From: Spirosoma fluviale
GTDB taxonomy: Bacteria > Bacteroidota > Bacteroidia > Cytophagales > Spirosomataceae
Assembly (NCBI GenBank): GCA_945885545.1
Contig: CAMCYZ010000004.1
Coordinates: 1 to 47,997, forward strand
DNA length: 47,997 nt
Reading direction: 5' to 3'
Shown here in pieces: positions 17,966 through 21,899 of the stretch. Numbering within the stretch: position 1 is the first letter of the stretch; the number at the start of each line of letters is the position of its first letter. Made by a program: the position numbers and the translations under genes. The notes under the pieces were generated by a model. It had not been told where the DNA came from, ran no database searches, and saw only the letters and a program-made list of their open reading frames with translations.

Positions 17966-18703
17966 GTGGATTTTATCAAAAAAACTGGAAGTGTTTTAGG
18001 AGTTATTTTAATTATCCCTTTTACTGTTTTTTCACAAACCCATGTCGCCCGTCAAAACTTGTTTTGGATGCGAGCAATGGTACAGTCTAATTTGAATAAA
18101 AAACTATTTTTGGTTACCGAAATAGACAACCGCAGGTTTTATGAGGGTAATACGCAGCACCATACCATACAACACAATCATTTGCATTTAAGGATAAACT
18201 CGAGTGTTGATGTGGCTATAGGACAGACCTTTTCGTGGCAAGATTCACAGTTTCCTGATGCCGCGATAAAACTTACAGTCCCTGAGATACGCCCTTTTCA
18301 AGAAGTGAATGCGGTACAAAAAATCAACAAAAAAGTTGTTTTTTCCACCAGAGTGAGAATTGACGAGCGATTTATTCGGAAAAATGATGGCGTCCAACTT
18401 TTGGAAGGTTATAACTTTAACATGCGTTACCGCCTTCGGCTACAATACCAATTTTTTCTTTGGAAAAAACAAAACGCCAACCTCAAAATATCCGATGAGT
18501 TAATGGTGAATTCTGGTAAAAATGTCAATTTCTTTGACCAAAATCGAGTTTACATCGCTTATGAACATAATTTCACGAACAAATTCTCTGCCGAATTGGG
18601 CTATTTGAGATGGTATCAACAACGGGCTCAGTTTGATACTTATTTTCAAAGAGATATTGTGCGTTTGACTTTATTTAAGAAGATAAATTTTACCAATAAT
18701 TAG
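17966..18703 (+). CDS. DUF2490 outer-membrane protein
   Basis: Recognised as DUF2490 by its beta-barrel-like pattern: alternating hydrophobic strands ending in aromatic residues (VDVAIGQTFSWQDS, RYRLRLQYQFFLWKKQ, FSAELGYLRWYQQR), and a final strand IVRLTLFKKINF. A signal peptide (MDFIKKTGSVLGVILIIPF to FSQ) is encoded from a GTG start; no ATG gives a signal peptide, so GTG is preferred. Length 245 aa. The function of the family is unknown; an outer-membrane barrel is likely. It is followed 42 bp on by an OmpR-type response regulator, and the neighbourhood suggests an envelope-stress or envelope-sensing locus. Confidence 0.8.
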   Translation: MDFIKKTGSVLGVILIIPFTVFSQTHVARQNLFWMRAMVQSNLNKKLFLVTEIDNRRFYEGNTQHHTIQHNHLHLRINSSVDVAIGQTFSWQDSQFPDAAIKLTVPEIRPFQEVNAVQKINKKVVFSTRVRIDERFIRKNDGVQLLEGYNFNMRYRLRLQYQFFLWKKQNANLKISDELMVNSGKNVNFFDQNRVYIAYEHNFTNKFSAELGYLRWYQQRAQFDTYFQRDIVRLTLFKKINFTNN

Positions 18704-18745: not shown

Positions 18746-19420
18746 ATGAAAATTTTACTTGTTGAAGACGAAGCCAAAACTTTGCAGCTCATAAAGCAGG
18801 GCTTGGAACAACATAATATGGAGGTAGATATAGCATACGATGGCTTGATGGGACTTACTTTGGCTCAAAGAAATCCTTATGATTTATTGATAACCGACAT
18901 TATTCTTCCAGAGATAAACGGGCTTAATCTTTGTCGAAAACTTCGTGAAAGTGGTTTTGAAACGCCCATTTTGCTCTTAACGGCTCTCAGTACCACGGCT
19001 GACATTATTACGGGTTTGGATGCTGGGGCTGACGATTATCTCGGAAAACCTTTCGAGTTCAGTGAATTAATGGCTAGAGTCAGGGCCTTGACCCGCCGAA
19101 ACAAAGCTTTAGCAGCTCCTTCTAATGTATTACGGGTGTCTGATTTAGAGCTAAATCAAGACACCAAGCTGGTAAAACGTGCCGGTAGGGAAATACTCTT
19201 GACGGCCAAGGAGTTCAACCTTCTGGAGTTGTTGATGCGGCATCCTGGTCGGGTGATTTCGAAGGTAGAACTAGCCGAGAAAATTTGGGACGTAACCTTT
19301 GATACGGGTACCAATGTCATAGAAGTGTATGTGAATTTTCTTAGAAAGAAAGTGGACAAAGATTTTGATAGAAAGTTGATTCATACACAAATAGGTATGG
19401 GTTACGTTATAAAGGATTGA
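18746..19420 (+). CDS. OmpR-family response regulator
   Basis: Cytosolic DNA-binding regulator, partner of the kinase gene that follows 7 bp downstream. The receiver domain (1-120) has the acidic pocket ED at residues 7-8, phospho-acceptor D51 in LLITDIILPEING, the switch threonine in LLTALS and the lysine in DDYLGKPF. The C-terminal winged helix (about 130-224) shows LTAKEFNLLELLMRHPGRVI and GTNVIEVYVNFLRKKVD, ending IGMGYVIKD. The ATG at 18746 is preferred to an in-frame TTG six bases before it. OmpR-type regulators bind direct repeats spaced about 11 bp; such an array lies at 20862-20899, just after the kinase gene. Confidence 0.94.
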   Translation: MKILLVEDEAKTLQLIKQGLEQHNMEVDIAYDGLMGLTLAQRNPYDLLITDIILPEINGLNLCRKLRESGFETPILLLTALSTTADIITGLDAGADDYLGKPFEFSELMARVRALTRRNKALAAPSNVLRVSDLELNQDTKLVKRAGREILLTAKEFNLLELLMRHPGRVISKVELAEKIWDVTFDTGTNVIEVYVNFLRKKVDKDFDRKLIHTQIGMGYVIKD

Positions 19421-19427
19421 TTAGGAA

Positions 19428-20888
19428 TTGAAAAAAAATCAGGTGAAGTCCATATTAGAAAACATAAATTTTAAACTCAATATTCGAGGTCAGCTTACCT
19501 TACAGGTTTTACTGTTAGTTGGGTTTCTTTTTATGTTTTTTTCGGTCAGTATTTATTTTTTCAGTAAACTTTATTTGGAAAAACGCTTTTTCAAAAAACT
19601 ACAAGACAAAGCTTTAACGACTTCCTCCCTTTTTTTTGATTTCCAGGCCAATAATATTGAGATTCAGAAAATTGTTGAAAACACCGAAGGAGAATACCTC
19701 AACGAAGAGGTGATTTCAATAATAGACATTAAAAGAAACCTCTTTGTATTTTCCAATAATCTAAAAAAAGAAGAGTTTCACCGACTTTTTATGTTTAGAA
19801 TTGACACAAACAGCCCGGTTGGAAATGCAAGTTTGGGAGCATATAAGATGGCCTATCTTAAGATCAAGGACAATTCTGGAGAATACTGGGTAATGGTTAG
19901 TGCCGTTGATAAAATAGGCGAAAGAGCCTTGGCTGATTTGAAGAATATCCTTGTTATCATGTCTTTTGTGGCCTTGCTTTTTATTGGTTTTTTGGGTTGG
20001 TATTTGGCAAATAAGGCCTTGGCTCCGATATCAGACATTATAAAGCAGTTGGATAAGATTTTTCCCAAGAACATATCCAAACGAATCATATACACTAACT
20101 TTGGCGATGAAATAGGGCAAATGGCCGAAACCATAAATAAACTTTTGCAGCGGGCCGAAAACGCTGTTTTTACCCAGAAGATGTTCGTGGCCAACATATC
20201 ACACGAGCTTAAGAATCCCCTTACAAAAATCTTCACCCAGATAGAACTGTTGGAGATGAAATACAAAAACTACCCAGAGTTTCACGATCAGATAGTTTCG
20301 CTTAGAGAAGATACCCTAAAGCTCAACCACCTCACGCATTCGCTTTTACAATTGGCCAATATATTTTCGAATGAAAACGCATTGCCGCTCACTGAAATCA
20401 GGTTAGACGAGGTGGTATTTGATGCCGTTTCGGAGTTTAAAAAATGGAATGCTAACAAGAATATCGAGATAGACCTCGAGAGTTTTCCTGAAGACGAAAA
20501 ATTCCTTATCGTTAAAGGTAGCGAGGAGGCTTTGAAGGTAGTTTTCAAAAACTTGATTGACAACGCCTGTAAGTTTTCGGTCAATCAGACTGCTCTTTTG
20601 AATATTTCGGTCAAGCGTAATCAGGTGAAAGTTGAAATCAAAAATGATGGAATCCCGATTCCTAAAAACGAAATCACCCAAATATTCCAACCTTTTTATA
20701 GGTCAGATTCCACATCAAGAGGCAAAACTGGACACGGGGTAGGTTTGGCCATTGTGAAGCAAATTGTAGAACTGCACCACGGCAAAATTGGCGTTTTCCC
20801 GCAAGAAGACGGTAATCTTTTTCAAGTCACCCTTCCCAACCTTTTTTACTGGCAGTCAAATTTTAAGCTAAATTTAATTTCCATTTAA
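19428..20888 (+). CDS. Sensor histidine kinase
   Basis: Inner-membrane kinase expected to phosphorylate the upstream response regulator. Order: short cytosolic start, membrane helix (about 27-50), periplasmic sensor region (about 51-178), second helix (about 179-200), HAMP (about 200-253), then the dimerisation domain with H259 in FVANISHELKNPL. The ATPase domain carries an N box in NLIDNACKFS, a G1 box as IKNDGIPIP, and a G2 box in GKTGHGVGLAIV. The G1 box has N-D-G in place of the usual D-x-G-x-G, but the aspartate is kept. The start is TTG: the first ATG lies inside helix 1 and would destroy it. Seven bp after the regulator gene. Ligand unknown. Confidence 0.92.
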   Translation: MKKNQVKSILENINFKLNIRGQLTLQVLLLVGFLFMFFSVSIYFFSKLYLEKRFFKKLQDKALTTSSLFFDFQANNIEIQKIVENTEGEYLNEEVISIIDIKRNLFVFSNNLKKEEFHRLFMFRIDTNSPVGNASLGAYKMAYLKIKDNSGEYWVMVSAVDKIGERALADLKNILVIMSFVALLFIGFLGWYLANKALAPISDIIKQLDKIFPKNISKRIIYTNFGDEIGQMAETINKLLQRAENAVFTQKMFVANISHELKNPLTKIFTQIELLEMKYKNYPEFHDQIVSLREDTLKLNHLTHSLLQLANIFSNENALPLTEIRLDEVVFDAVSEFKKWNANKNIEIDLESFPEDEKFLIVKGSEEALKVVFKNLIDNACKFSVNQTALLNISVKRNQVKVEIKNDGIPIPKNEITQIFQPFYRSDSTSRGKTGHGVGLAIVKQIVELHHGKIGVFPQEDGNLFQVTLPNLFYWQSNFKLNLISI

Positions 20889-20899
20889 CTCCTGTTTAA
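20862..20899 (+). promoter_or_regulatory. Four TTTAA motifs with exact 11-bp spacing: probable OmpR-family operator
   Basis: TTTAA occurs at 20862-20866, 20873-20877, 20884-20888 and 20895-20899, each 11 bp after the last. The array overlaps the 3' end and stop codon of the kinase gene, lies 55 bp before the ATG of the coiled-coil gene, and ends 12 bp before a -7-like element TAGTTTG (20912-20918). An 11-bp direct-repeat period is the known binding geometry of OmpR/PhoB-type regulators, and such a regulator is encoded two genes upstream. The regulatory link is inferred. Confidence 0.65.
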
Positions 20900-20954
20900 G
20901 GTCGGTCTGTTTAGTTTGTTCCATAATCAAAACTTAAATATTTTAACATTGGAA

Positions 20955-21899
20955 ATGGAACAACACTCATCGAGCAATTCAAACACGCTTAAAATTGGTT
21001 TAATTGTACTTTTGGGAGCTTTAGGACTTCTTGGATACTTGTATTATGGTTCACAAAACGAAAACGCTGATTTACAAAAGCTTTTAACTGGCAAAGTAGA
21101 TGAGTTGTCTACTACTAAAGTTAAGTTGGATTCGATATCACAATCGCTCGATGCGAAAATAGCTGAGGTAGCTTCCTTGGGTGGTAGCGTAGAAGAACTA
21201 GAGAAAATAAAGGCTCAGCTGGAGCAGGACAAGAAAAGGCTTAAGTCCGATTCTAACTTTTCTGCCAAGAAGTATGAAGGTAAAATAGCTGAATATGAAG
21301 CTTTTTTAACTCAAAAAGACGAAGAAATTCTGAAATTGAAAGAAGAAAATGGGCTACTAAACTCACAGAATTTAACCCTTAAAACTGAGAAAGAGCAAGT
21401 TATAAGCCAAAACAAATCATTGAGCTATGCCAAAGATTCTCTAAACTCAAAGGTAAGTGAGGTGAGTTCTCAAAATGAGGATTTACGTAAGAAAGTAAAC
21501 GTAGGTTCGGCTCTTAAGGCTGTAAATGTGCAAGTAGTAGGATTAACAAGTCGAGGTAAGGAAAGAGATGGAGAATTGAAAAATCGCAAAGTAGATCAGT
21601 TAAAAATTTCTTTCATACTACCGTCAAATCCGCTCACCGAAAGAAACAACAAAGAGGTTTATATGAGGGTCTTGGATCCAAATGGAGCCGTGCTTAATGA
21701 CATGTCAAGAGGTGGTATTTTGAATTTTGCCAACCAGGAAATCGGTTACAGCTTAAAACAAAATGTGGCTTACACTAACGATGATCAGAAAGTTGAAATG
21801 TTCTACAAAAAAGAAGTAGTTTTTAAATCGGGTAAATACGTAATTGAGATTTATTCAGAAGGATTCAAAATCGGAACAGGAAGCTTTTTGGTAAAATAA
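20955..21899 (+). CDS. Membrane-anchored coiled-coil protein with C-terminal beta-rich domain
   Basis: No known function. After 10 polar residues there is one membrane helix (TLKIGLIVLLGALGLLGYLYY, about 10-30). A long heptad-like coiled coil follows (about 35-195, KLDSISQSLDAKIAEVASLG, LKEENGLLNSQNLTLKTEKE). The last 110 residues look beta-rich (VDQLKISFILPSNPLTERNN, VYMRVLDPNGAVLND, KYVIEIYSEGFKIGTGSF). The predicted topology puts coiled coil and tail in the periplasm. The ATG at 20955 is used; a TTG at 20916 in frame is not. A paralogue starts at 47201. The gene lies downstream of a two-component pair with a putative operator in between, so it is a likely target of that system. Confidence 0.75.
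   Translation: MEQHSSSNSNTLKIGLIVLLGALGLLGYLYYGSQNENADLQKLLTGKVDELSTTKVKLDSISQSLDAKIAEVASLGGSVEELEKIKAQLEQDKKRLKSDSNFSAKKYEGKIAEYEAFLTQKDEEILKLKEENGLLNSQNLTLKTEKEQVISQNKSLSYAKDSLNSKVSEVSSQNEDLRKKVNVGSALKAVNVQVVGLTSRGKERDGELKNRKVDQLKISFILPSNPLTERNNKEVYMRVLDPNGAVLNDMSRGGILNFANQEIGYSLKQNVAYTNDDQKVEMFYKKEVVFKSGKYVIEIYSEGFKIGTGSFLVK

Follow-up and report, generated by a model that had tools for sequence, protein, structure and literature searches.

A conserved, phased TTTAA array beside a two-component system of Spirosoma fluviale: a candidate operator for a coiled-coil protein gene

Introduction

The window analysed here, a stretch of 47,997 nucleotides from Spirosoma fluviale, carries four TTTAA words spaced at regular intervals between a sensor kinase gene and the gene for a coiled-coil protein. 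Response regulators of the OmpR/PhoB type are described as binding direct repeats head to tail (PMC4832192), and a first-pass annotation of the window had proposed that the words form the binding site of such a regulator. Did the array arise by chance, is it a by-product of the coding sequence that it overlaps, or is it an operator? And if it is an operator, which regulator reads it, and what does it control?

Results

The array and its locus

TTTAA had been reported at 20862, 20873, 20884 and 20895 with an exact 11-bp period, and all four positions were confirmed on the + strand. The reported overlap with the end of the kinase gene is real, as the third half-site covers the stop codon (ORF end 20888), and the 12-bp gap between the array end at 20899 and the TAGTTTG that begins at 20912 is likewise as claimed. 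The features of the locus are as follows.

18746–19420, + strand: OmpR-family response regulator, proposed reader of the array (Pfam Response_reg and Trans_reg_C)
19310–19354, + strand: stretch TNVIEVYVNFLRKKV of the regulator, which from family knowledge we take to be the recognition helix; it includes NFLRKK, kept among aligned array-linked regulators
19428–20888, + strand: sensor histidine kinase (Pfam HAMP, HisKA and HATPase_c, with HAMP under its curated cut-off)
20862–20866, + strand: half-site 1, TTTAA, farthest from the gene (word position; TTAA columns kept in the 38-site alignment)
20873–20877, + strand: half-site 2, TTTAA (word position; 38-site alignment)
20884–20888, + strand: half-site 3, TTTAA, overlapping the kinase stop codon (word position, ORF end, alignment)
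20895–20899, + strand: half-site 4, TTTAA, nearest the gene (word position; 38-site alignment)
20911–20918, + strand: −7-like box TTAGTTTG (TTTG 15 nt past half-site 4)
20923, + strand: predicted transcription start, from a box placed at −12 to −5 (PMC9723704)
20955–21899, + strand: target gene, 314 aa, with an N-terminal hydrophobic helix, a long coiled coil and a C-terminal beta-sandwich (AlphaFold2 models)

The −7 box of flavobacterial sigma-A promoters is given in PMC9723704 as TAnnTTTG, set at −12 to −5. The box at the present locus matches it in 7/8 letters and deviates at the second base. If it is placed at −12 to −5, as PMC9723704 has it for flavobacteria, the array would span about −61 to −24 and lie over the −33 region. 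A scan of 20600–21100 for sigma-70-type promoters found none, and the sole terminator-like site from the same scan lies inside the kinase gene. No Rfam RNA reached the gathering score in the window.

Phasing and chance

TTTAA is a frequent word, with 259 occurrences on both strands of the window, and an array of four might in principle be fortuitous. Assuming independent occurrences, however, the expected number of four-copy arrays in 11-bp phase is about 5e-6 per window and 4e-4 for the window genome (3.92 Mb in 314 contigs, 92.9% complete), and none appeared in 400 Markov sequences with the same dinucleotide make-up. With the search widened to every 5-mer in four copies, at all periods between 7 and 30, the array was the sole case in the window, and there was none in 10 Markov sequences. 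The scan of the genome for TTTAA-N6 triples that the first-pass annotation had called for gave three matches, two of which are this array; the one other place is separated by 175 nt from a putative transporter ORF and is oriented away from it. Four TTAA at 11 bp occur at one place in the window genome, and three TTAA followed by N15-TTTG are found at this array and nowhere else. The earlier judgement that four words in perfect phase are unlikely by chance is thus borne out by the expected frequency and by the conservation of the array across genera, described below. On these two grounds a chance origin was rejected, its probability being negligible.

Conservation at orthologous loci

Conservation at orthologous loci had been set beforehand as a test of the proposal. 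Among the best 80 of 236 target-homolog loci, a kinase homolog lies upstream of the target in 37 (L064–L098, L100 and L110), accompanied by the regulator in 36 of them. The remaining locus, L068, has the kinase only, and its regulator is encoded about 40 kb from the array in the same genome (G047). The array was present at 37/37 of these loci with the two-component system and at 0/43 of those without it; the match to the TTTAA array was 17–20 of 20 letters in the former and 11–16 in the latter. The loci are kin by descent, and with 80% identity weighting their effective number is about 16.

In an alignment of 38 sites (the 37 loci and the window), the TTAA columns varied little or not at all, and the upstream flank was low in information. 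All 38 sites keep the four copies at exactly 11 bp, and in every one, the window included, TTTG follows exactly 15 nt after the last TTAA. The second base of the −7-like box departs from TAnnTTTG in the window, and that position is T in 35/38 rows (a count that includes one row, L081, offset by one repeat), making TTnnTTTG the usual form. The TTTG spacing stays fixed while the array lies anywhere from 30 to 144 nt before the homologous coding stretch, the start of which is in some rows a few codons inside the gene.

A weight matrix made from the aligned sites recognized a single site per locus in the 37 with the two-component system, and no site in the 43 without it. Its matches at its own source sites arise by construction, and the informative part is the absence of further sites. 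Autoregulation through a like architecture was not seen: none of the 37 loci held a second site at the matrix threshold. In 35 loci, the 400 nt before the regulator were also compared with four TTAA, and the best match amounted to 9–14 of 16 letters.

Constraint from the kinase C-terminus was considered as an explanation for the conserved words and rejected, since the array persists near the target gene where the kinase-homologous stretch ends several hundred nucleotides upstream, as at L071, L076 and L078.

The two-component system

The gene at 18746 had been called an OmpR/PhoB-type regulator, and both of its domains score above their Pfam cut-offs (Response_reg, 98.9 bits; Trans_reg_C, 81.2 bits). 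Its nearest NCBIfam model, TIGR01387, was not reached (241.8 bits against a cut-off of 279.2), nor were the cut-offs for PmrA (NF007928, 158 vs 330 bits) and for the Bacteroidota PhoB (NF053854, 159.7 vs 270 bits); the model nearest to the kinase, TIGR01386, likewise scored below its cut-off. Judged by these profiles, the regulator is a relative, rather than a member, of the CusR/CopR/CzcR heavy-metal group. Mycobacterial PhoP is among its nearest solved relatives.

Two features of the original proposal had to be revised. The system had been described as orphan-looking and is actually an adjacent kinase–regulator pair, kept across genera. A DUF2490 gene (17966–18703), which precedes the regulator, had been counted as part of the locus; such a gene stands beside only 4/37 ortholog systems and was rejected as a member of the module. 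The four loci that have it are from close Lacihabitans relatives.

The target gene

Homologs of the target are present in 121/121 sampled family genomes, mostly in two or more copies, and the closest named relative, Lacihabitans soyangensis, stands at 93% over the target protein. The full-length AlphaFold2 model had a mean pLDDT of 81 and a pTM of 0.43; the C-terminal domain modelled alone gave 92 and 0.86, respectively. This domain is an immunoglobulin-like sandwich (best Z 10.1 over 100 residues, 2.4 Å). Such sandwiches are common and the structural matches were mostly to unrelated enzymes or domains, and a function drawn from the fold was rejected; Foldseek matches of the full-length model were unspecific too. 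The product would be anchored in the membrane with its coiled coil in the periplasm.

Directly after the target, a homolog of the Exo_endo_phos family is found in at least 25/37 loci with the two-component system, a lower bound because some loci end soon after the target, and in 0/43 without it. The Pfam assignment of this homolog was made on L072 (6053–7204) alone. No such homolog was found in the window.

The promoter pattern in the family

The pattern (TTAA-N7)x3-TTAA-N15-TTTG occurs in 87/121 family genomes, and its reversed control in 0/121, so phased arrays are not equally frequent at random, an outcome that the original proposal had named as counting against it. With the TTTG condition removed, four phased TTAA were found in 94/121 genomes and the reversed control in 17/121. 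Across the class, the spaced pattern was present in 13/295 genomes, at least three of them from Spirosomataceae, with a reversed control of 0/295. The preference for 15 nt also holds for arrays at other loci: of 37 distinct non-ortholog arrays found without requiring TTTG, 16 have TTTG at this distance, and the remaining distances between 5 and 30 account for 4 or fewer each.

Sixty sampled regions around non-ortholog arrays were set against 20 comparison regions. Relatives of the regulator, at 43–58% identity, were encoded in 24/60 array regions vs 0/20 comparison regions at E <= 1e-30, and in 24/60 vs 1/20 at E <= 1e-10. The Fisher value of 2e-4 for this proximity is too small, as several of the 60 regions come from closely related species. 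The other 36/60 array regions had no related regulator.

Pfam was run on nine first ORFs after non-ortholog arrays. Eight matched, to DabA, Proton_antipo_M (DabB-like), Sulfate_transp, ACR_tran, HlyD_D23, OEP, DUF4382 and Cytochrom_C_asm/ResB, and one had no match. Like arrays thus precede genes for DabA, a DabB-like subunit, a SulP-type transporter and efflux components (L198, L207, L222, L203, L191 and L225), the last comprising an RND pump, a membrane-fusion protein and an outer-membrane efflux protein. Four genomes of the Lacihabitans group (L239, L240, L241 and L244) have a similar array before a lipoprotein-like gene, assigned to DUF4382 by Pfam on L239 alone, which is a possible second target in that group. 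At L218, L235 and L237, the first ORF, 286, 32 and 31 nt from the array, is itself a response-regulator gene, which suggests autoregulation in other class members.

In five Dyadobacter genomes (L190, L193, L195, L197 and L200), the promoter pattern sits at the stop codon of a related kinase, and the next gene is convergent. The box is TTAAATTGAGTTAGGTGAGTAGTAA in three of them and a variant in two, followed within about 300 nt by a GC-rich hairpin and a T-run. From its sequence, this element looks like a short regulatory RNA under two-component control.

A shared recognition helix

Sixty array-linked regulators were aligned (35 orthologs, 24 others and that of the window). NFLRKK is present in 59/60, the exception being L074 with NFVRKK, and outside this kept stretch the proteins diverge to 43% identity. 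We also collected 32 OmpR-type effector domains from three genomes and scored an array as three or more phased TTAA within 1.5 kb. By this measure, 5/8 domains with NFLRKK had an array and 3/8 had none, compared with 0/24 without NFLRKK, six of which carry NYLR; these counts partly reuse cases known beforehand to have arrays. The window genome encodes a second NFLRKK regulator, L289 (G000:C280), with no array within 1.5 kb.

We put forward, at even odds, that the NFLRKK class shares one promoter grammar in Spirosomataceae: four TTAA at 11 bp and 15 nt to TTTG, with parallel systems differing mainly between the half-sites. Its targets would include the coiled-coil envelope protein, DabA/DabB-like and SulP-type transporters, efflux pumps, and the putative Dyadobacter short RNA encoded directly after the kinase gene.

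Discussion

The array, its conservation, the fixed TTTG spacing and the ties to the two-component system and to one class of recognition helix are all legible in the genomes compared. Taken together, they make it probable that 20955–21899 is driven by an activator-dependent promoter whose operator is the array and whose activator is the adjacent regulator. We envisage that the kinase (19428–20888) detects a signal and phosphorylates the regulator (18746–19420), which would occupy all four half-sites in head-to-tail order; the bound form is probably a pair of tandem dimers that share one face of the helix. Bound in this position, the regulator would take the place of the −33 element and recruit RNA polymerase to the imperfect −7 box, with transcription starting near 20923. 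Expression would then yield a coiled-coil protein, anchored in the membrane and tipped by a beta-sandwich, and, in many relatives, a membrane-bound Exo_endo_phos-family protein encoded next on the same strand. Binding, its dependence on phosphorylation, activation over repression, the number of dimers, the start site and the membrane topology are what we infer from this arrangement.

Alternatively, the array could be an OmpR-family operator read chiefly by a different regulator that shares the recognition stretch, for instance L289, the adjacent pair being one of several inputs or incidental. The second NFLRKK regulator in the window genome would fit this, as would the distant regulator at L068; yet 37/37 loci with the adjacent system have the array and 43/43 without the system lack it, L289 has no array within 1.5 kb, and we regard another main reader as unlikely. 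About equally unlikely, in our view, is that the adjacent regulator binds and represses, with relief on signal, or that the sign switches with phosphorylation. The position of the array fits activation or repression alike, and a protein bound over the −33 region could block polymerase. However, the −7 box is imperfect, and four half-sites at a fixed 15 nt from TTTG constitute an activator-like placement, judged by comparison with the Pho box as PMC4415409 describes it.

Less probable still, and by a clear step, is that the array was kept for promoter strength, as an AT-rich element of the promoter or a site for a nucleoid protein, and is read by no response regulator. The AT-richness of TTTAA and the place of the array, directly before the −7 box, would fit this; against it stand the strict 11-bp phase, the linkage to two-component genes and to one recognition-helix class, and the absence of the array from the promoters of paralogs.

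The preferred reading, an activator operator read by the neighbouring regulator, provides a precise operator together with a named regulator and a conserved target, in a family for which few regulons have been mapped. If the family-wide rule is true, the targets of many two-component systems could be read from promoter sequence. No description of this operator was found among the open-licence papers searched, judged by titles and the openings of abstracts; direct repeats bound by OmpR/PhoB regulators are of a known kind, and the system, its target and the family-wide rule appear to be undescribed.

Among known systems, the PmrA box is the closest in sequence. This box, bound by an OmpR-family regulator, is reported as TTTAAG-N5-TTTAAG in Acinetobacter and as YTTAAK repeats in Salmonella (PMC10927774), so that the TTTAA core and the 11-bp direct-repeat period are common to both. 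It has two half-sites, whereas the array has four and a fixed 15 nt to a Bacteroidota −7 box; the target here is unrelated, and the regulator falls well short of the PmrA cut-off. The Pho box, in the account of PMC4415409, is built of direct repeats of 11 nt that are bound head to tail next to the promoter, like the array in period and location, but the half-site sequence differs and the regulator here is not PhoB by its score. Mycobacterial PhoP, a near solved relative of the regulator, offers a parallel for repeats in a row: PMC4832192 describes operators of tandem 7-bp motifs with a 4-bp spacer, bound more tightly when there are three and four motifs than two. Half-site sequence, phylum and targets are different. 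The CusR/CopR/CzcR group supplies the best NCBIfam models for regulator and kinase, although both score below cut-off and the target here is no efflux gene; some other arrays do precede RND, membrane-fusion and outer-membrane efflux genes. From the likeness to OmpR/PhoB, PhoP and PmrA sites, and from a regulator that meets no curated family cut-off, we read the site as the putative activator operator of a CusR-group relative, PhoB/PmrA-like in action and outside those families.
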